In this document: one piece after another, positions 243-33,266 of the stretch | Layout: each line of letters opens with the position of its first letter | How positions within the stretch are numbered: position 1 is the stretch's first letter | Source of the DNA: a virus | Strand: one strand, 5' to 3' | Virus record (IMG/VR): IMGVR_UViG_3300050015_000093 | Location: 1 to 35,831 of that record | DNA length: 35,831 nt | Notes under the pieces: generated by a model | Told to the model about the DNA's origin: nothing | Database searches by the model: none | Seen by the model: only the letters and a program-made list of their open reading frames with translations | Program-made: the position numbers and the translations under genes

Positions 243-428
243 TTGGCAGATGAACATGATAAATTAATACCTTTGCACGAAGAATTATTCAAACAACTCC
301 GAAAAGATACGGACAAACTGTTGAAAACGCTAGACGATATTCACCTTTGCGTATTGATCCTGCTCGGCAGCTTGGCGCTTTTTGTATTTATGAACCACGA
401 TAAATTATTAAGTGGGGTGATAAAATGA
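243..428 (+). CDS. Small membrane protein of the lysis block
   Basis: 61 codons with a TTG start, chosen because AGGAGGTG at 231-238 sits at normal spacing. The N-terminal half is charged and helical; residues about 37-52 (CVLILLGSLALFVFM) form one membrane span, so the likely topology is cytoplasmic N-terminus with a single TM. It overlaps the next ORF by four bases (ATGA). No named family recognised; position suggests a holin or antiholin accessory. Confidence 0.6.
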   Translation: MADEHDKLIPLHEELFKQLRKDTDKLLKTLDDIHLCVLILLGSLALFVFMNHDKLLSGVIK

Positions 429-748
429 GATTTCTTCTGATTATTTTGGTAATTGGCTTTAACTTTGTTCTGTACGATGTTTTTATATGGCAAGACAATG
501 TTCCGGTGGTGGCGGTAACGGAAGCTAATCATACCGCACGCCTAGACAGCACAATGCCAGTAGTTGATCCACCGGTCGTCAAAGTTGCTGATACGGTAAC
601 TTATACCCCTATCCATGTTGCGGAGGCTGCGGCTAATCCTCACAGTGTCACAGACCCGAACACTGTCAATATATTGCACCAAGTTATGGAGTACGGGGGC
701 TCATACAGCGAGAGGGCAGAATACTATAATTTCGGACCGATGAAATGA
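425..748 (+). CDS. Membrane-anchored protein of the lysis block
   Basis: 107 codons. Residues about 3-20 are strongly hydrophobic (signal anchor); the rest is polar and rich in Val, Thr and Pro, as expected for an exported segment. It starts inside the previous gene's stop and ends inside the next gene's start, so it is translationally coupled on both sides. No family recognised. Confidence 0.6.
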   Translation: MRFLLIILVIGFNFVLYDVFIWQDNVPVVAVTEANHTARLDSTMPVVDPPVVKVADTVTYTPIHVAEAAANPHSVTDPNTVNILHQVMEYGGSYSERAEYYNFGPMK

Positions 749-990
749 AGTTTATCAAAAAATCAATCCGTGACCTTTTTTCTACTCTCTACGACGATAA
801 CCAATTTAAACTTATGTCAATGCCCCGTGTATGGTGCGCCATATCGGGGCTTTGTGTTATCGCAGCCTGGATCTCTGAGCAGTATTTCGGGTTGAAATTC
901 GCAGGGTGGACGCAGTTGGTGGCATGGGCGATTGCCTGTTTAGGGGCTTATGCAGCCAAAAAATACGTGGAGAAGGATAAGATACCATGA
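745..990 (+). CDS. Two-TM small protein, holin candidate
   Basis: 81 codons. Two predicted membrane helices at about residues 29-47 (WCAISGLCVIAAWISEQYF) and 52-72, with a charged C-terminal tail (KKYVEKDK). Small size, two spans, basic tail and position three genes before a lysin fit a class II-like holin, which would form the membrane lesion that releases or activates the lysin. The holin call is inferred from topology and context. Confidence 0.5.
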   Translation: MKFIKKSIRDLFSTLYDDNQFKLMSMPRVWCAISGLCVIAAWISEQYFGLKFAGWTQLVAWAIACLGAYAAKKYVEKDKIP

Positions 991-1133
991 GCGACTTATG
1001 CGCTGGTTGCAAACTTGACAAAGACCGATGCAAAGAGCGTGGTTATTGCCTGATAGTAAAGACACTAGAATATTTGGAAGTCGAGAAGCAAATGTGGAAA
1101 GAAGCGGAAAATCGGGAATGGGTGGTACCATGA
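987..1133 (+). CDS. 48-residue Cys-containing protein
   Basis: ATG at 987 overlaps the previous stop (ATGA) and its own TGA overlaps the next ATG (1130-1133). It encodes CxxC at residues 5-8 plus Cys15 and Cys21, then a charged helix, so a small zinc-binding knuckle is possible. Tight coupling on both sides argues it is real. Function unknown. Confidence 0.55.
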   Translation: MSDLCAGCKLDKDRCKERGYCLIVKTLEYLEVEKQMWKEAENREWVVP

Positions 1134-1579
1134 CAAATGAGAAAGGAAGCGAGATCATGCTAAATTTAAGTTTTATGGATATTGCCGAACGTGCAGCCCG
1201 GGTGGCGGTGGAAAACGGATTACCTAATATTGACCCTCGCTGGCTTTATGCTCAATTCGTCCACGAGAGCGACAACTTCACTTCGCGACTCTTCCGAGAG
1301 AATAAAAACTTCGGAGGGTTAACGCAGGAAACTCCAAACGATAGTTTGCAACCTGATGGCAATTACTACTACATGAATTTTGAAACCTATAAAGACTACG
1401 CAGATTATCTAGGGAAATACTTGACCGGATACATTGACGGAGGAGTTGACAAGGCCGAAACTTTGGCCGAGTATATTACCGCTTTAAAGGTGTCGCCAAG
1501 TGGAGAATATTTCGGCGATAGCCTAGAAAACTACCTTTCAGACTGCCAAAGGATATACGATCAGGAGTTTTCTGTCTAG
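1130..1579 (+). CDS. Endolysin, glucosaminidase-like
   Basis: 149 codons. The core matches the FlgJ/N-acetylglucosaminidase fold: AQFVHES at residues 41-47, with Glu46 in the place of the family catalytic glutamate (AQxxxES), followed by ENKNFGGL, the equivalent of the NNLFGIK element, and a C-terminal DYxxYLxxYL segment typical of the domain. It would cleave peptidoglycan glycan strands at lysis. No signal peptide is visible, so export would depend on the holin. ATG 1130 is favoured by the 4-base overlap; ATG 1157, with AAAGGAAG upstream, is a good alternative start. Confidence 0.75.
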   Translation: MTNEKGSEIMLNLSFMDIAERAARVAVENGLPNIDPRWLYAQFVHESDNFTSRLFRENKNFGGLTQETPNDSLQPDGNYYYMNFETYKDYADYLGKYLTGYIDGGVDKAETLAEYITALKVSPSGEYFGDSLENYLSDCQRIYDQEFSV

Positions 1580-1647
1580 ATTGTCATGTGAAGCCACACA
1601 GATGGTCAAGGTGGCACGAAACCAAATAAAAGACAGCGACGTAAGGG

Positions 1648-2022
1648 GTGATTACTATTGGCACGCTACAAACTAACAAAAACTATCTTATTGGTGCTGG
1701 TGTTCTCGTTTTGCTTGGGGTATTCGGCTATTGGTTATACCTCACCCACATATCAGGCGACGGAACAGGAGCTAACAAAGTTAGACAGCAACTTGGAAAT
1801 GCTATCCAGCAACAATCAGAAGCTGCTGACACAATTAAGTCAGTCGAAAGTGGAATTGGAAATAGCGTCAAATCAGTTGGCAACATTGAAAACACAGTTA
1901 GCCACATTGCAAACACAAACGCAACTAGCATTGCAACAGCAACAGACAGCACAAGCCTCATTGCTGACAGCCAACGTATCCTTCGAGAAATTCGCCAAAG
2001 AGGAACGAGCAAAACAAGATAG
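1648..2022 (+). CDS. Spanin-like membrane protein, frame A of an overlapping pair
   Basis: 124 codons, GTG start. Residues about 13-33 (YLIGAGVLVLLGVFGYWLYL) form a TM segment; the remainder is polar and heptad-like (SVESGIGNSVKSVGNIENTV) and ends in a basic tail (ILREIRQRG). This is the topology of an inner-membrane spanin: N-terminal anchor with a long periplasmic helix. It lies almost entirely inside another long ORF in the +1 frame (1658-2083). Both have sensible membrane plus coiled-coil design, so I list both. Its ribosome binding site is weak; it may share the AAGGGGTG at 1643-1650 or be coupled. Confidence 0.5.
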   Translation: MITIGTLQTNKNYLIGAGVLVLLGVFGYWLYLTHISGDGTGANKVRQQLGNAIQQQSEAADTIKSVESGIGNSVKSVGNIENTVSHIANTNATSIATATDSTSLIADSQRILREIRQRGTSKTR

Positions 2023-2083
2023 ACTGAAACTGGAAAGAAATGGACTGATAGTGGCAGTAGCCTATTTGTTGCTTAGGAAGTAA
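1658..2083 (+). CDS. Spanin-like signal/coiled-coil protein, frame B of an overlapping pair
   Basis: 141 codons, TTG start 7 bases after AAGGGGTG. Residues 1-29 are a classic signal sequence (basic, then LLVLVFSFCLG); residues about 33-110 are a Gln/Leu-rich coiled coil (repeats of ATLKTQ and ATLQTQ); residues about 128-139 are a second hydrophobic stretch ending LLLRK. A protein held in the envelope at both ends with a coiled coil between suggests a spanin-type disruptor. Cys19 lies in the signal but the preceding residues are not a canonical lipobox. It is followed immediately by a terminator, closing the lysis operon. Confidence 0.6.
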   Translation: MARYKLTKTILLVLVFSFCLGYSAIGYTSPTYQATEQELTKLDSNLEMLSSNNQKLLTQLSQSKVELEIASNQLATLKTQLATLQTQTQLALQQQQTAQASLLTANVSFEKFAKEERAKQDRLKLERNGLIVAVAYLLLRK

Positions 2084-2565: not shown

Positions 2566-2591
2566 CCCGGCTTAACAGCCGGTTCTTTTTT
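2564..2591 (+). terminator. Rho-independent terminator
   Basis: CCGGCT-taac-AGCCGG stem followed by TTCTTTTTT, overlapping the stop of the preceding gene. It isolates the non-coding region downstream. Confidence 0.8.
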
Positions 2592-2639
2592 GCCAACTCA
2601 TTAGTATATGCAACATCTTGGTAAAATATTCTTTATTTG

Positions 2640-2669
2640 TTGCAATTTCCACAACATACATGGTATAAT
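2640..2669 (+). promoter_or_regulatory. Strong promoter driving a non-coding segment
   Basis: TTGCAA (2640-2645), 18-base spacer, TATAAT (2664-2669), with an extended -10 TG at 2661-2662. It lies just after a terminator and has no protein gene for 700 bases downstream, so its product is probably RNA. A very similar -10 block recurs at 32372. Confidence 0.7.
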
Positions 2670-2675
2670 TTATAT

Positions 2676-2872
2676 AACAAAATAAATATGCCCCCAAGCG
2701 TTAGAAGCGCCTAGAGGCTATTCCTACTGACTGTGCCACAATCAATAGGAAGATTTCGAACCAATCGTAACATATTGCTGAATTGTTAGCAATAGGGAAT
2801 GGGTGGAAATCTTAAATAAATATGTGCGCAATTAGTAGGACAAACAGTTTAATAACTGGGTGTCCCTTTTTT
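2676..2872 (+). ncRNA. Candidate structured non-coding RNA, about 200 nt
   Basis: A promoter at 2640-2669 and a strong terminator bound a gene-free unit. The terminator is GGACA (2838-2842) and CAGTT (2845-2849) nested with AACTG (2854-2858) and TGTCC (2861-2865), then TTTTTT. Visible helices: TTCCTA/TAGGAA (2721-2726/2746-2751), GATTTC/GAAATC (2752-2757/2806-2811) enclosing TATTGCT/AGCAATA (2773-2779/2788-2794), and GCC-taga-GGC at 2709-2718. An 11-base direct repeat AAATAAATATG occurs at 2680 and 2814. Size and architecture resemble regulatory RNAs such as 6S, but I recognise no signature sequence of a known class. The exact 5' end is inferred. Confidence 0.55.
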
Positions 2873-3325
2873 GTTATCTGGAATTGAATATCGATCAATA
2901 AGCGGTTTGGGGTTAAACGTGTAAAATACCCTCCCTTTTTCCCAAGGGATTATAATAATGGGCTTGCCTAGTGGTATCGAAGGATATTATGAAAGCGACA
3001 GTACCTTTCTTCTGTCGTGTCGGCAGTAGGTAAGCGCAACCATTAAAAGCGCGGTGTGGATTTCCGGTGTCCTATGGGACAAGGGTACATGTGAAGAACT
3101 GGACGGAAATGGTTCGATGAAGCATGTAGACGAAAGTCTGGAAGTTAAGAAAGGATGAAGCGAGGCGAAGCGACACGATAGGATCTGCTTATAATACTTT
3201 TCTCTGGTGCATTCCGAATATAAAGTTTTTCGGCGTGTATCAGGGTGAAGTCTATTCTCTCTTCTCTCTATCCTCCTGGATCTATATTAAAACATGGAAC
3301 GTGTCAAACAATATCATTCTTTAAT
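2873..3325 (+). other. Gene-free, hairpin-rich region
   Basis: No plausible ORF on either strand. Helices seen: GACAG/CTGTC (2997-3016), TGTCC-tatg-GGACA (3068-3081), a long arm TACATG/CATGTA (3086-3091/3123-3128) containing GAAC/GTTC, AGAC-GAAA-GTCT with a GNRA tetraloop (3128-3139), and CCGAA/TTCGG (3214-3233). It could be a second structured RNA, the 3' part of a larger RNA extending from 2676, or a cis element of the partition module downstream (centromere). No iteron-like repeat array was seen. Confidence 0.4.
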
Positions 3326-3364
3326 ATTGACTTATAATATCATATATGTTATGATAAAGTCAAT
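3326..3364 (+). promoter_or_regulatory. Promoter wholly embedded in a long inverted repeat
   Basis: TTGACT (3327-3332), exactly 17 bases, TATGAT (3350-3355). The outer arms ATTGACTT (3326-3333) and AAGTCAAT (3357-3364) are perfect inverted repeats, and the inner arms TATCATA (3338-3344) and TATGATA (3350-3356) are also inverted. A repressor bound here would mask both promoter boxes. The first gene downstream is RHH-like, a natural candidate autorepressor and perhaps centromere-binding protein. Confidence 0.65.
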
Positions 3365-3379
3365 AGGGAGGTGATAAAA

Positions 3380-3760: not shown

Positions 3761-4594
3761 ATGGCAACAACTATCAGCGTTAACTGCCAAAAAGGTGGAG
3801 TGGGCAAGACCACATGCTGTCTACTGCTGGGGTACAATCTTGCCAAAAGAGGGTACAAAACTTTGATGATTGACTTTGACAGCCAGGGGAACCTTTCGTA
3901 TGCGGCCCGGGCCGGGCAGAATATCTACGATCATACCAAAAAGACTTCGTTTGAGGCAGTCAAGACAGGAAGTGTGAAACCGTTCATTATTCCAGCCTTA
4001 CACGCAACACAAGGAGAACCTAAAGAGATCGAAAATCTTTTTCTAGTTCCAGCAGAGGACTGGCTGTCTAATCTTGCCTATTATATGTACGTTGAATGGA
4101 GAGTAGCTAATTCGGAAGGGTTTAGGAAGTCGGAGTACATGTATCTATTAAAACATGCTCTAAACCCCATACAACACGACTTCGACTACATACTTATAGA
4201 TTGCCCACCTTCTCCCGGGGAACCAACCAGACTTGCCCTGGCTGCTTCTGATTGGAGTTTGATTATCATGCAAAGCCAGATATTCTGCTTTGATGCTGTC
4301 GGGCGGTTTGCAGAGATTATGGAAGGGGTGCAGAAGCAATTCAATCCTGTTTTAGACGTTCTCGGAATTGTGCCAACATTGATGGATAGCAGGGCCAACT
4401 TAGACGCAGGGATAGTCAAACATGCACGGGCGGAGTTTGGTGATTGGGTAACGGATACAATTATTCATTCCAAAACAAAGGTGAAAGAGATTGCTGTAGG
4501 AATACCGGTTAACCTTAATAAAAAAGAACGTGATGCCTTAGACCAGTATAATGAGTTGACTTGCGAGGTGTTGAGACGATGCCAAACGCACTAG
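3761..4594 (+). CDS. parA: ParA-type partition ATPase
   Basis: 277 codons, near the usual size for small ParA proteins. It carries the deviant Walker A KGGVGKTT at residues 11-18, the A'/switch element LMIDFDSQGNLS at 35-46 and Walker B ILIDCPPSPGEP at about 143-154. GGAGGTG at 3747-3753 fixes the ATG. ParA ATPases form ATP-dependent dimers on nucleoid DNA and position a plasmid through a centromere-binding partner. No N-terminal helix-turn-helix is present, so this is the short form that relies on a separate DNA-binding protein, matching the RHH genes on both sides. It suggests the prophage replicates as a low-copy plasmid. Confidence 0.85.
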   Translation: MATTISVNCQKGGVGKTTCCLLLGYNLAKRGYKTLMIDFDSQGNLSYAARAGQNIYDHTKKTSFEAVKTGSVKPFIIPALHATQGEPKEIENLFLVPAEDWLSNLAYYMYVEWRVANSEGFRKSEYMYLLKHALNPIQHDFDYILIDCPPSPGEPTRLALAASDWSLIIMQSQIFCFDAVGRFAEIMEGVQKQFNPVLDVLGIVPTLMDSRANLDAGIVKHARAEFGDWVTDTIIHSKTKVKEIAVGIPVNLNKKERDALDQYNELTCEVLRRCQTH

Positions 4595-7435: not shown

Positions 7436-7636
7436 ATGTCAACAATGTCAGCAAATTGTCACCTAGAACCAGACGAGGAAATTAAGTTGATACTTTATGC
7501 AGATACCAACGGGGATGGAGAACGGTATTTTGTGTTTGACATTAACGGTATGGGGCTGTTTATGAGCCCGGAGCAGATGGAAAAGGCCGTAGATAAGATT
7601 AATAAGCGATATGCGGAGGCGGCAGACAATGGCTAG
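7436..7636 (+). CDS. Hypothetical small protein
   Basis: 66 codons from ATG 7436; an upstream in-frame extension to 7295 exists but reads across the TM peptide and looks spurious. The protein is acidic with strand-like segments (EIKLILYADTNGDGERYFVF) and a C-terminal helix. It overlaps the HNH gene start by 8 bases. Function unknown. Confidence 0.45.
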   Translation: MSTMSANCHLEPDEEIKLILYADTNGDGERYFVFDINGMGLFMSPEQMEKAVDKINKRYAEAADNG

Positions 7637-8252
7637 ATTGTACGCGGGAACAATTATTAACAGATGGACGCTTATTCAAAATATTGATAATGAAATGTGG
7701 GTTTGTAGATGTTCTTGCGGAAAAATAAAAAACGTCATTGTACGAAACGTAATAAGAGGATTTTCTAAAAGTTGCGGATGCCTTAATAAAGAGGTTAATA
7801 CCCAGAGATCGCTTCTAGCATATTCACATACTCCATTATGGAATCGATGGGTTGCAATGCGACAAAGATGCAATGACGAAAATTGTAGCAATTACGAAAG
7901 ATACGGAGGAAGAGGAATTAAAGTTTGTGATGAATGGGATAAGTCGTATTTATCTTTTAAGGACTGGGCTATTAAAAATGGATTTAGCGAAACGTTGGAG
8001 ATAGATAGGATAGACAATAATGGAAACTATTCACCCAATAATTGCAGGTTTGCAACAACGAAAGAAAACGCAAACAATCGGCGCAGTAATGTATTTCTTA
8101 CAATTGGTTCGGAAACACACAATATTAAATGGTGGTCGGAAGAAGCCGGGATAAATTACGGAACAATACAATCTAGGAGAAGATACGGATGGTGTGATGA
8201 AGACTTAACAAAACCAGTAGACAGGAGGCGTAGAAATGGGAACGCTTTATAA
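7629..8252 (+). CDS. HNH-type homing endonuclease, free-standing
   Basis: 207 codons; ATG 7629 chosen because GGAGG at 7615-7619 precedes it. The N-terminal region has a zinc-ribbon-like set (CRCSCG, SCGC). The core follows the phage HNH pattern: YGGRGIKVCDEW, IDRIDNNGNYSPNNCRFAT, NNRRSN. The C-terminus has one DNA-recognition repeat (IGSETHNIKWWSEEAGINYGTI). It probably makes a site-specific break in related phages lacking the gene. It sits between early genes with short overlaps and shares the core with the gene at 16294. Confidence 0.75.
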   Translation: MARLYAGTIINRWTLIQNIDNEMWVCRCSCGKIKNVIVRNVIRGFSKSCGCLNKEVNTQRSLLAYSHTPLWNRWVAMRQRCNDENCSNYERYGGRGIKVCDEWDKSYLSFKDWAIKNGFSETLEIDRIDNNGNYSPNNCRFATTKENANNRRSNVFLTIGSETHNIKWWSEEAGINYGTIQSRRRYGWCDEDLTKPVDRRRRNGNAL

Positions 8253-16293: not shown

Positions 16294-16917
16294 ATGGGCG
16301 CTTTGAAATACATTAAAGTACCATTTATGAAAAGAGAATATTCCACATGGTATAGTATGGTTCATAGATGTTTAGACAAGACCCATCCTAATTATCGCGA
16401 CTATGGCGAACGTGGAATAACTGTGTGCGAAGAGTGGAAAAACGATTATCAACAATTTGTATTAGATATGGGAAATAAGCCAGCCGGATTGACGTTAGAC
16501 CGAAAAGACAATAGCAAGGGATATTACAAAGGCAATTGCCGTTGGGCTACGTATTACCAGCAATCTAGGAACCGCCGAAGCACAATAATTGCAGAAATAG
16601 ACGGAATAACAAAGTGTGCAAAAGACTGGGCTATTGATAAAAACATTAACCTTAGCACTCTATATGACAGAGTTGAAAAAGGGTATAGCCTTGAAAAAGC
16701 AATTTCAATGGGAGCATTCCATAAAACGAAAATTGTCATAAATGGAATAGGGAAAACGATTGACGAGTGGGCTACAGAAACAGGAATTAATCGGACAACT
16801 ATATACATGAGAATTCATGCGTTGGGGTGGAGCAATGAAAGGGCTATAACCAACACAAAAAGTCGCAAAAGTGTTCATGAGTGCATGTTAAATTTGGTAA
16901 GAAAAATAATTAGTTGA
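16294..16917 (+). CDS. HNH-type homing endonuclease with two recognition repeats
   Basis: 207 codons, TAGGAGTGATTAG before ATG. Same core as the gene at 7629: YGERGITVCEEW, LDRKDNSKGYYKGNCRWAT, NRRST. The C-terminus has two tandem DNA-recognition repeats, IDGITKCAKDWAIDKNINLS and INGIGKTIDEWATETGINRT, each ending in a Gly-x-Ser plus Ala-Ile unit. Last gene of the early operon, directly before a terminator and tRNA. Confidence 0.75.
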   Translation: MGALKYIKVPFMKREYSTWYSMVHRCLDKTHPNYRDYGERGITVCEEWKNDYQQFVLDMGNKPAGLTLDRKDNSKGYYKGNCRWATYYQQSRNRRSTIIAEIDGITKCAKDWAIDKNINLSTLYDRVEKGYSLEKAISMGAFHKTKIVINGIGKTIDEWATETGINRTTIYMRIHALGWSNERAITNTKSRKSVHECMLNLVRKIIS

Positions 16918-17028: not shown

Positions 17029-17103
17029 GCCACATTAGCACAACGGAAGTGTCTCTGCCTTGTAAGCAGGTGGGTGTGGGTTCGAGTCCTACATGTGGCT
17101 CCA
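17029..17103 (+). tRNA. tRNA-Thr, anticodon UGU
   Basis: Acceptor GCCACAT pairs with ATGTGGC (17093-17099). D arm GCAC/GTGT with a 7-base loop; anticodon stem TCTGC/GCAGG around loop CTTGTAA (anticodon TGT at 17061-17063); T arm GTGGG-TTCGAGT-CCTAC. Discriminator T then encoded CCA at 17101-17103. All helices close, so a functional tRNA reading ACA (and related Thr codons) is likely; it may offset codon bias in virion genes. Confidence 0.9.
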
Positions 17104-21696: not shown

Positions 21697-22326
21697 ATGT
21701 TAACCCCAGCAGAAGAAATGGAATTAATATCCCTTGCCGAATGGGACTTGTGGTCACGCGATCCCTGGCAATGGATCAAAGATTGCTGCTATACCATGGA
21801 TGAGGCAGACGAGGGCAAGACCAAGCGGTTCCCGGACAAGGAGTATCTATCCTATATATGTACGGCCTGGCTCAAGCATGATCTACTGGCCATACCTAAG
21901 ACCCGGCGTATGATGTTGTCATGGCTGATGATTGCCTTGCATCTATGGGCAGCGTTATTCCATCCCAATAGCGCTATCTTTGTCCAGTCCAAGAAGCAAG
22001 AGGACAGCGACTTCCTGATAGCTGATAAGCGCATGATGTTTATCTATAACAACCTGCCAAAGACGCACAGATGGCCTGTATGTGCTTATAAGTCCTGCAA
22101 CATAGCGGTAAGCAACGGTAGCTATATCAAGGCTATAGGGCAGGGTGCTGACCAACTGCGTGGCTATACAGCTTCATACATTATGCTTGATGAGTGTGCG
22201 TTTTGGGAGCAGGCAGAAGATACCTGGGCAGCTCTAAAACCTACTGTTCAGGGTGGTGGACGTGTTGTGTTGGTAAGCAGTGCGGGCCCAGGCTTCTACC
22301 AAAGAATTTGCGAAGGTGATATTTAA
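21697..22326 (+). CDS. Terminase large subunit, ATPase half (separate ORF)
   Basis: 209 codons. It carries the TerL motor elements: Walker A-like IPKTRRMMLSWL (about 66-77), an adenine-binding-region pattern, Walker B YIMLDECAFW (about 162-171) and the coupling strand VVLVSSAGPGF (about 190-200). It stops at TAA 22324-22326, just past the ATPase fold. The nuclease half is a separate ORF starting at 22326 (TAATG). It would power ATP-driven DNA translocation into the prohead. Confidence 0.75.
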   Translation: MLTPAEEMELISLAEWDLWSRDPWQWIKDCCYTMDEADEGKTKRFPDKEYLSYICTAWLKHDLLAIPKTRRMMLSWLMIALHLWAALFHPNSAIFVQSKKQEDSDFLIADKRMMFIYNNLPKTHRWPVCAYKSCNIAVSNGSYIKAIGQGADQLRGYTASYIMLDECAFWEQAEDTWAALKPTVQGGGRVVLVSSAGPGFYQRICEGDI

Positions 22327-23126
22327 TGCAAGGCGTAACAGAGTATGACACAGACCAAGGCATCCACGTTCTGCGCATCCATTATACTGCTGACCCAGAC
22401 AAGTGCAGTCCTGAGTGGGCAGCAGAGCAAAGGCGCGGCATGACAGAAGCCGCATGGCAACGAGAGATGGAGATCAACTTCAACGTCTTTGCAGGCAAAG
22501 CGTGGTATCCCGAGTTTCGCATAGATTTCCATGTTGCCAAAGAACCACTTGCAGTCATAGATGGCAGGCCAATAGCAAGAGGTTGGGACTACGGTCTTAC
22601 TCCTGCTACCATCTTCTGCCAGACCACAGCCAAAGGCCAGTTGCTAGTTCTCTATCCTGAGTTGCAATCAGTCGATTGTGGTATCCTGGCACATGGTAGA
22701 GTAGTTAAGTCAGAGAGTGCAACATACTTTTCTAAGGCTACATTCAATGACTATGGCGATCCAGCAGGCAATCAACGTTCGCAGACAGATGAGAAGACAG
22801 CTAACGATATACTACGTAGCGAGTATGGTATCAATGTGTTGCCTGGGCCTGTATCCTTCGAGGCTAGAGACAACGCCATACGTAAGTCTCTTACCACTAT
22901 GACACCCGATGGACAACCTATGATGCTGATTGACCCACGTAATACATGGTTGATAGCGGCATTTACAGGTGGTTATCACAGGAAAGAGGTGGCAGGTAGA
23001 TACCTTGAAGAACCCGACAAGAATGAGTACAGTCACATCATGGATGGATATGGATATGTGGCAAGTAGTATCAATTCTATACCAAAGAAGAAGCATAGAA
23101 CAACTCGTAGAGCGGGGGCAATGTAG
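22326..23126 (+). CDS. Terminase large subunit, nuclease half (separate ORF)
   Basis: 266 codons, ATG overlapping the previous TAA by one base, with AAGGTGAT at 22313-22320. The RNase H-like nuclease fold is complete: ARGWDYG (first Asp, about 83-89), FNDYGDPAGN (about 138-147) and HIMDGYGY near the C-terminus with the last Asp. Preceding IHVLRIHYTADPDKCSPEW is the usual TerL linker. It would cut concatemeric DNA before and after packaging. With the ATPase half it adds up to about 475 residues, normal for one TerL. Confidence 0.75.
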   Translation: MQGVTEYDTDQGIHVLRIHYTADPDKCSPEWAAEQRRGMTEAAWQREMEINFNVFAGKAWYPEFRIDFHVAKEPLAVIDGRPIARGWDYGLTPATIFCQTTAKGQLLVLYPELQSVDCGILAHGRVVKSESATYFSKATFNDYGDPAGNQRSQTDEKTANDILRSEYGINVLPGPVSFEARDNAIRKSLTTMTPDGQPMMLIDPRNTWLIAAFTGGYHRKEVAGRYLEEPDKNEYSHIMDGYGYVASSINSIPKKKHRTTRRAGAM

Positions 23127-23357: not shown

Positions 23358-23503
23358 AATGTCCTGATTGTGGCGCAGAGATGCAGCCTAACATTCGAGT
23401 CATAGACGGCAAGGAGATACCTCTACAGGGCTATCGCTGCAGCAACTATGATTGCGGCTATATCAAGCGGAAAGAGACTGTTAGAAGGGCAGGGGCGATG
23501 TAA
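23354..23503 (+). CDS. 49-residue zinc-ribbon protein
   Basis: ATG overlaps the previous TGA. CPDCG (3-7) and, after a short insert, a CSNYDCGY knuckle form a mini zinc ribbon. C-terminus basic (KRKETVRRAGAM). It does not overlap the HNH gene, which starts five bases downstream. Function unknown. Confidence 0.5.
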   Translation: MKCPDCGAEMQPNIRVIDGKEIPLQGYRCSNYDCGYIKRKETVRRAGAM

Positions 23504-23507
23504 TATT

Positions 23508-23858
23508 GTGGATAGACAGGGCAATTTTAATTCAGATAGGTTTCCTTATCGCAAGAATGAAAGTGGATTTAACCTTTGTCGAGTATGCGGTAAGCCATGC
23601 GAAGGGAACAGAACTTGCTGTGATCATAGGTGTTGGCGCGACTTCTTTATGCAAACTGATTGGCAAAGAGTACGGAGAGTGATATTCGAGCGCGACGGCG
23701 GTATGTGTATGAAATGTGGTAAGAAAGTAGACAAGAAAGGCTATCATGTTGACCATATAGAACCAATTAGCAAGGGCGGTGCGGAATGGAGTTTTAGTAA
23801 TCTGGAATTATCCTGCGCTGAATGTAATTTAAAGAAAAGTAACAAAACAGAGAAATGA
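23508..23858 (+). CDS. HNH endonuclease beside terminase
   Basis: 116 codons from GTG 23508, with GGGGCG upstream; a longer in-frame ORF begins at 23448. CRVCGKPC and CMKCGKKV are zinc knuckles around the HNH core HVDHIEPISKGG...SNLELSCAECNLKKSN, where HVDH holds the catalytic His. HNH proteins next to terminase genes can assist packaging cuts in some phages; a homing function is equally possible. Confidence 0.7.
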   Translation: MDRQGNFNSDRFPYRKNESGFNLCRVCGKPCEGNRTCCDHRCWRDFFMQTDWQRVRRVIFERDGGMCMKCGKKVDKKGYHVDHIEPISKGGAEWSFSNLELSCAECNLKKSNKTEK

Positions 23859-32483: not shown

Positions 32484-33266
32484 TTGAAGACTATTGAACA
32501 TGTTTTTATTAATGGTGTAGAGCATAAAATATGTGGAAAATGCAAAAGAGTTTTGCCGCTACAATTTTACACAGCAAACAAACAAACTAAAGACGGATTG
32601 TATGGTTATTGTTACGATTGTAAAAACGTGCAATGCAGAAAAGATTATGTAATCCATAAAGAAAACAAGATCAAATACACACAGGAATACAGGATTAAAA
32701 ACCATGAAGAATTCACTAAACGCAATAGAGAAAGTGCTATAAAATATTATTGGAAACATAGAGAAGTCATAATCGAAAAACATAAAAAATATAATCATGA
32801 AAATATAGAAAATATCCGTAAAAAATATCACAAAAAGCATCCCACATCTATCGCGAAAATCACAGGAAGAAAGTCTAAGATGAACCCAGAACAATACGAA
32901 AAATTAAGACAAAGGGAAATAATCAAAGAACATAGAAGAAGGGCGTTAAAATATAATGCTTTAACAACTCTTACATTTGAACAATTTAATAAATGTCTGG
33001 AATTTTTTGATTATAAAGATGCTTATACCGGACTTGAAATGGATATAGTTAGCCATGACCACGTAATACCACTTTCTGAAAGCGGAGGGTTCACGAGACA
33101 AAATATCATCCCGTGTGAAAAAGCTATAAATTCAAGTAAGAGTAACAAAAACATGGAAGAATGGTATAGGGAACAGTCTTTCTTTTCTGAAAAGCGACTT
33201 AAAAAGATTAAACAATGGATGGGACAAAAAAATAATAGCAATATCCTACAGATAGCATTTTTCTGA
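32484..33266 (+). CDS. HNH homing endonuclease with N-terminal zinc finger
   Basis: 260 codons, TTG start after AAGGGGTG. N-terminal zinc finger CGKC...CYDC (about 17-46), a long basic helical linker (many Lys/Glu), then the HNH core SHDHVIPLSESGGFTRQNIIPC, KAINSSKSNKN near the C-terminus. It has its own promoter and sits between small virion genes, as a free-standing homing element would. Confidence 0.75.
   Translation: MKTIEHVFINGVEHKICGKCKRVLPLQFYTANKQTKDGLYGYCYDCKNVQCRKDYVIHKENKIKYTQEYRIKNHEEFTKRNRESAIKYYWKHREVIIEKHKKYNHENIENIRKKYHKKHPTSIAKITGRKSKMNPEQYEKLRQREIIKEHRRRALKYNALTTLTFEQFNKCLEFFDYKDAYTGLEMDIVSHDHVIPLSESGGFTRQNIIPCEKAINSSKSNKNMEEWYREQSFFSEKRLKKIKQWMGQKNNSNILQIAFF

Follow-up and report, generated by a model that had tools for sequence, protein, structure and literature searches.

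Described spanins rely on an outer-membrane lipoprotein anchor. According to the main survey of these proteins, about 70% of known embedded pairs have an o-spanin gene, coding for an outer-membrane lipoprotein, that begins 0.4-0.5 of the way into the i-spanin gene (PMC6139136). The Negativicutes, which include Veillonella, Selenomonas, Megasphaera, Phascolarctobacterium and others, possess an LPS outer membrane without LolA or LolB (PMC5007114). Veillonella parvula has no known outer-membrane lipoproteins (PMC10665443), and LipoP-predicted lipoproteins have been observed in a Veillonella outer-membrane fraction (PMC5491611). A search of 150 Negativicutes genomes likewise found no LolA (0/150), the E. 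coli control being positive. As these hosts lack LolA, a lipid-anchored o-spanin could hardly be sorted or delivered, and the route by which phages exit Negativicutes had been open. The overlapping gene pair described here, termed A/B, is a concrete, testable answer to that question.

The A/B locus and its lysis cassette

The window, by which is meant the whole stretch of viral DNA analysed, comprises 35,831 nt (IMG/VR record IMGVR_UViG_3300050015_000093, positions 1 to 35,831) and encodes an SU10-type portal, as identified by family search. A search of phage and viral collections disclosed no close relative of the window. When A, B, the endolysin and the portal were used as single-sequence queries against IMG/VR and GTDB contigs, no match was returned, and phage records yielded no spanin match, bar one weak fecal match. 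The features of the lysis region are as follows.

425..748, + strand: small protein whose N-terminal segment is hydrophobic, encoded farther upstream in this gene run (sequence only; no family match)
745..990, + strand: small hydrophobic protein, holin candidate (sequence only; no family match)
1130..1579, + strand: endolysin, N-acetylglucosaminidase-type (PF01832 E 9.2e-6, below the curated cut-off; PHROG endolysin E 2.2e-5)
1643..1650, + strand: Shine-Dalgarno-like AAGGGGTG, at a position suited to both ATT 1657 (A) and TTG 1658 (B)
1648..2022, + strand: ORF A, predicted inner-membrane-anchored helical protein, i-spanin-like (start GTG 1648 or ATT 1657; stop 2020-2022; 124 codons)
1658..2083, + strand: ORF B, predicted exported helical protein with a signal peptide and a hydrophobic tail at the C-terminus but without a conserved lipobox (start TTG 1658; 141 codons)
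1658..2022, + strand: dual-coding region, 365 nt read in both frames, taking in both N-terminal hydrophobic segments

In the window, the pair comes after the glucosaminidase-type endolysin and a run of small membrane-protein genes. Across relatives, the pair is immediately preceded by an endolysin whose type varies (Amidase_3, Amidase_2, GH25, glucosaminidase or VgrG3-like), at least five unrelated families being represented. This variation indicates that the pair stays with the lysis cassette as the endolysin changes. The criterion for a lysis cassette, genes beside an endolysin, is met both in the window and in its relatives.

Several other features of the window were observed in passing. 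The large terminase is apparently split into two abutting genes (21697-23126) with the junction TAATG; the ATPase-like part occupies 21697-22326 (PHROG terminase E 1e-12), and the second part, of 266 aa and without a family match, may be the nuclease half. A region of about 800 nt without a plausible gene (2566-3370) folds much more stably than its shuffles (z -4.7, 20 shuffles) and matched no Rfam family; it is possibly a structured non-coding RNA. Four genes of HNH or endonuclease VII type (7611-8252, 16294-16917, 23448-23858 and 32484-33266) are likely homing endonucleases, a high load for a 36-kb phage. A ParA-type partition ATPase (3761-4594), whose nearest counterpart is a plasmid ParA of Bacillota, suggests that the virus may persist as a phage-plasmid, and a tRNA-Thr(TGT) gene is located at 17029-17103.

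Dual coding and host range

Entry to the relatives was gained through an alignment of the window's Sak4 annealing protein, from which prophage-bearing genomes were fetched. Searched alone against 24 of these genomes, B matched only in Phascolarctobacterium (Negativicutes) and Acidaminococcus massiliensis, both Acidaminococcales, and in none of the 22 others. At each of the three first loci, from these two sources, the B homologue is overlapped by an A homologue, with the frames related as in the window. A profile built from four B members matched 131 of 380 Negativicutes genomes at E<=0.001, some only through weak coiled-coil matches; 91 loci from 76 of the 380 genomes were examined as pairs, giving 92 with the window. 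The A/B pair is also carried by IMG/VR viral contigs; these contigs were scanned with alignments of two B subgroups, an alignment of 16 B members having proved too diverse for the purpose. A set of 398 genomes, drawn from the phylum to which a Clostridia genome belongs, gave strong matches only in genomes already in the Negativicutes set, the other matches being low-scoring and mostly within much longer proteins. Two non-Negativicutes matches that were inspected are FtsEX-adjacent coiled-coil loci without an A/B pair and were rejected as coiled-coil noise. Among the genomes sampled, the pair is confined to Negativicutes. The window's own pair has no close relative (about 30% identity). Sak4-like proteins akin to that of the window occur in Clostridia, Coriobacteriia and other groups (L007-L086); the Sak4 module therefore crosses classes, and the A/B pair was found only in Negativicutes.

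The frame of ORF B is +1 relative to that of ORF A, and the same relation (A at B-1) holds in 92/92 loci, the A frame being open for about 365 nt where the third frame averages about 100 nt. Synonymous codon shuffling of B predicts a strictly open A frame in seven loci, against the 87 of 92 observed, and the third frame is open in 0/92; the few exceptions apparently reflect damaged copies or B starts annotated too far upstream. For the window's own sequence, 2% of synonymous shuffles of B retain an open A frame. The overlap is thus only moderately unlikely by chance when the window is taken by itself, and it is the comparison with relatives that brings near certainty.

Selection on both frames is evident from patterns of substitution, drawn from other family members because the window pair has no close relative. 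For pairs with 85-98.5% identity, positions 1/2/3 of B codons differ at rates of 0.058/0.094/0.123 within the overlap, versus 0.086/0.047/0.224 in the B tail beyond A's stop. Within the overlap, third-position freedom is halved, and position 2 of B, which is A's wobble position, is freer than position 1; this shift in rates at A's stop is as expected if A is also under selection. Across 18 independent pairs, substitutions that leave B unchanged are conservative in A (mean BLOSUM 0.80 vs null -0.22, or 0.15 without stops; p<5e-5), and those that leave A unchanged are conservative in B (0.41 vs null -0.84, or -0.71 without stops; p<5e-5). The window proteins also score well against HMMs of the 86 other family members, A with 101 bits, where 2000 synonymous shuffles average 30 and reach a maximum of 63, and B with 105 bits. 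A and B are both real genes, and both frames are under purifying selection. The resulting 92-locus dual-coding dataset, in which both N-terminal membrane-targeting segments derive from the same nucleotides, should be useful for work on overlapping genes.

The original prediction of two long overlapping ORFs in different frames, at 1648-2022 and 1658-2083, therefore held. It would have been refuted by stops or frameshifts in relatives, or by purifying selection on one frame only; both were tested and neither was met. Its proposal of an outer-membrane-bearing Bacillota host such as Negativicutes also held, as homologues were present in Negativicutes but absent from the other Bacillota sampled.

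Predicted architecture and translation starts

Protein A possesses one strong N-terminal hydrophobic segment (median -2.1 on the Hessa scale) followed by helix, with helices predicted at 7-35 and 41-123 in the structure model, and a conserved C-terminal region around QRI-x-R. The i-spanin criterion, an N-terminal inner-membrane anchor with a helical periplasmic domain, is met by A, its topology being predicted. Periplasmic cysteines serve intermolecular disulfides in two-component spanins; Cys is found in the periplasmic part of A in 44/87 pairs, and the window A has none.

Protein B is composed of an N-terminal hydrophobic segment (signal peptide), a helix and a hydrophobic C-terminus. It is predicted to form one continuous helix from 30 to 140, some 110 residues, with a mean pLDDT of 85.7. 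The models of A and B are single chains built with few sequences, and the long helices were not fold-searched, as matches would be meaningless. The signal peptides of B end in AxA-like sites, with a conserved YxITExEL near the mature N-terminus. The C-terminal tail, of 12-15 residues, is marginally hydrophobic (Hessa scale, median sum +1.7 over 15 residues) and ends in Lys/Arg in 82/87. Cysteine occurs in the B helix in 10/87, and the window B has a single Cys, in its signal peptide. No conserved lipobox was found in the 87 pairs, either at the B signal cleavage site or in A. Lipobox-like patterns occur in 13/87, mostly inside the hydrophobic core, away from the cleavage site and not conserved; a canonical lipobox was accordingly rejected as a conserved feature of B. 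B has this hydrophobic tail, weak as it is, but no conserved lipobox, and it fails the criterion for a unimolecular spanin, an N-terminal lipobox with a C-terminal transmembrane domain. Weak similarity to TIGR04211, a family with a signal peptide and a C-terminal anchor, extends over the helix in 12/16 B members (best E 6e-7; window B 16.6 bits vs a cut-off of 65). It remains possible, in light of these matches, that the C-terminal tail anchors B in the inner membrane, which would place both subunits in the same membrane.

The start codons are inferred. In many relatives, the ATG of A lies four bases before the start of B (ATG-N-ATG). Other loci, including the window, have a Shine-Dalgarno-like GGGGTGAT followed by ATTG, in which B starts at TTG and A is without an ordinary, well-placed start. 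B tends to use TTG where A lacks a standard start at -4 (Fisher p=7e-5), and in four loci (L094, L095, L188 and L189) the ATG at -4 is changed to ATC with A otherwise intact. The A start in such loci may be read as near-cognate (ATT or ATC), overlapping or adjoining the TTG. For the window, the original choice of GTG 1648 requires qualification: this codon may not be the start, because it sits inside the Shine-Dalgarno-like element at 1643-1650. ATT 1657, one base before the TTG of B, is a serious alternative, and the A start in the window remains uncertain. The same arrangement of Shine-Dalgarno-like element and starts as in the window recurs in relatives. A single ribosome-binding site would apparently feed two starts a few bases apart, coupling the production of both proteins. 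The pair may serve as an annotation marker for Negativicutes phages, whose A gene can be missed where it has no standard start codon.

Proposed function, rival explanations and known systems

A/B is probably a lipid-independent, spanin-like outer-membrane disruption pair, encoded by the last genes of the Negativicutes phage lysis cassette. No experiment shows lysis; position, architecture and host range are the basis on which this role is inferred, and outer-membrane disruption, topology and membrane contacts are inferences also. In the proposed mechanism, the holin and endolysin would act first and, once the peptidoglycan meshwork has been removed, A (inner membrane, N-in) and B (N-out) would associate via their helices. 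Either the C-terminal tail of B or its conserved mature N-terminus (YxITExEL) may then contact a membrane, substituting for the N-terminal lipid that a classical o-spanin or u-spanin carries, and the complex would destabilise or fuse the outer membrane. Such a lipid-free design would fit hosts without a Lol sorting system. Against this explanation, no outer-membrane contact has been identified for A or B.

The original prediction had regarded both ORFs as spanin-like, with N-terminal anchors, coiled coils and a second hydrophobic end in B. The architecture held, as hydrophobic segments and predicted helices, and the spanin-like reading is supported with the qualification that the pair departs from the canonical Rz/Rz1 form: a conserved lipobox is lacking in B, the two starts nearly coincide, and neither gene lies inside the second half of the other. 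A spanin-like mode is proposed but the lipobox criterion failed, and the pair is therefore not classed as a two-component spanin. The Rz family PF03245 had no intact match in 379 genomes, neither A nor B matched a Pfam spanin family, and their PHROG Rz-like matches are weak and could be coiled-coil noise.

A first rival holds that A/B is a canonical two-component spanin, with B a lipoprotein that bears a divergent lipobox and reaches the outer membrane by an unknown Lol-independent route. In its favour, many B signal peptides terminate in motifs such as GTC-SA or GIC-SA, which place a Cys close to the cleavage site; spanins with unusual lipoboxes are known (PMC6139136); and there are the LipoP-predicted lipoproteins of the Veillonella outer-membrane fraction (PMC5491611). 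However, this Cys is not conserved, Acidaminococcus-type B signals ending in VSLAS and others in LSFAS, the lipobox-like matches lie mostly in the hydrophobic core, and LolA is absent from all 150 genomes; this rival is considered unlikely. A second proposes that B alone is a lipid-free analogue of a unimolecular spanin, with A regulating or inhibiting B or the holin. The order of parts in B is that of T1 gp11 minus the lipid (PMC6139136), and A usually starts first and has a single membrane anchor. Nevertheless, A is conserved wherever B is, under its own constraint and with a conserved C-terminal region, which makes this reading improbable without excluding a regulatory role. A third, that the pair has some other envelope role in late infection or lysogeny, e.g. 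surface exclusion or protection, draws on a weak match of B to PHROG 1625 (bacteriocin production or immunity) and is very unlikely, given that throughout the class the pair keeps its place immediately behind endolysins of unrelated families. Finally, the idea that only B is a real gene and that ORF A is open by accident, a possibility not negligible in a 35-kb scan when judged from the window's shuffles alone, is all but excluded and was rejected on the open-frame count, the codon-position and conservative-change tests, and the window A score, well above the null maximum.

Returning to the preferred, lipid-independent reading, a bolder version envisages a class-wide outer-membrane disruption system of Negativicutes phages, whose two proteins are co-initiated from overlapping starts (ATG-N-ATG or ATT/TTG) on the same ~365 nt. 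The balance of evidence tips slightly towards this version which, if true, would represent an independent solution to lysing diderm cells that lack Lol lipoprotein sorting. The open-licence literature searched yielded no description of spanins in Negativicutes phages or of the A/B architecture; an earlier one elsewhere is not excluded.

Among known systems, A/B resembles lambda Rz/Rz1 in that two proteins, one of them inner-membrane-anchored and helical, are encoded by the same DNA in +1 related frames beside an endolysin. In contrast to Rz/Rz1, A and B start within a few bases of each other, their N-terminal hydrophobic segments share DNA, and a conserved lipobox is lacking. In common with P2 LysB/LysC, A/B is an overlapping gene pair after an endolysin; however, its overlap is near-complete, about 365 nt from the 5' ends, and there is no o-spanin lipobox. 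Like the unimolecular spanin T1 gp11, B combines an export signal at its N-terminus with a periplasmic segment and a hydrophobic C-terminal one, but it has no conserved lipobox and is always paired with a second protein from the same DNA. The similarity to TIGR04211 (SH3 domain and C-terminal anchor) is weak and lies over the helix of B; in contrast to that family, B has no SH3 domain, occurs in a phage lysis context and is dual-coded.
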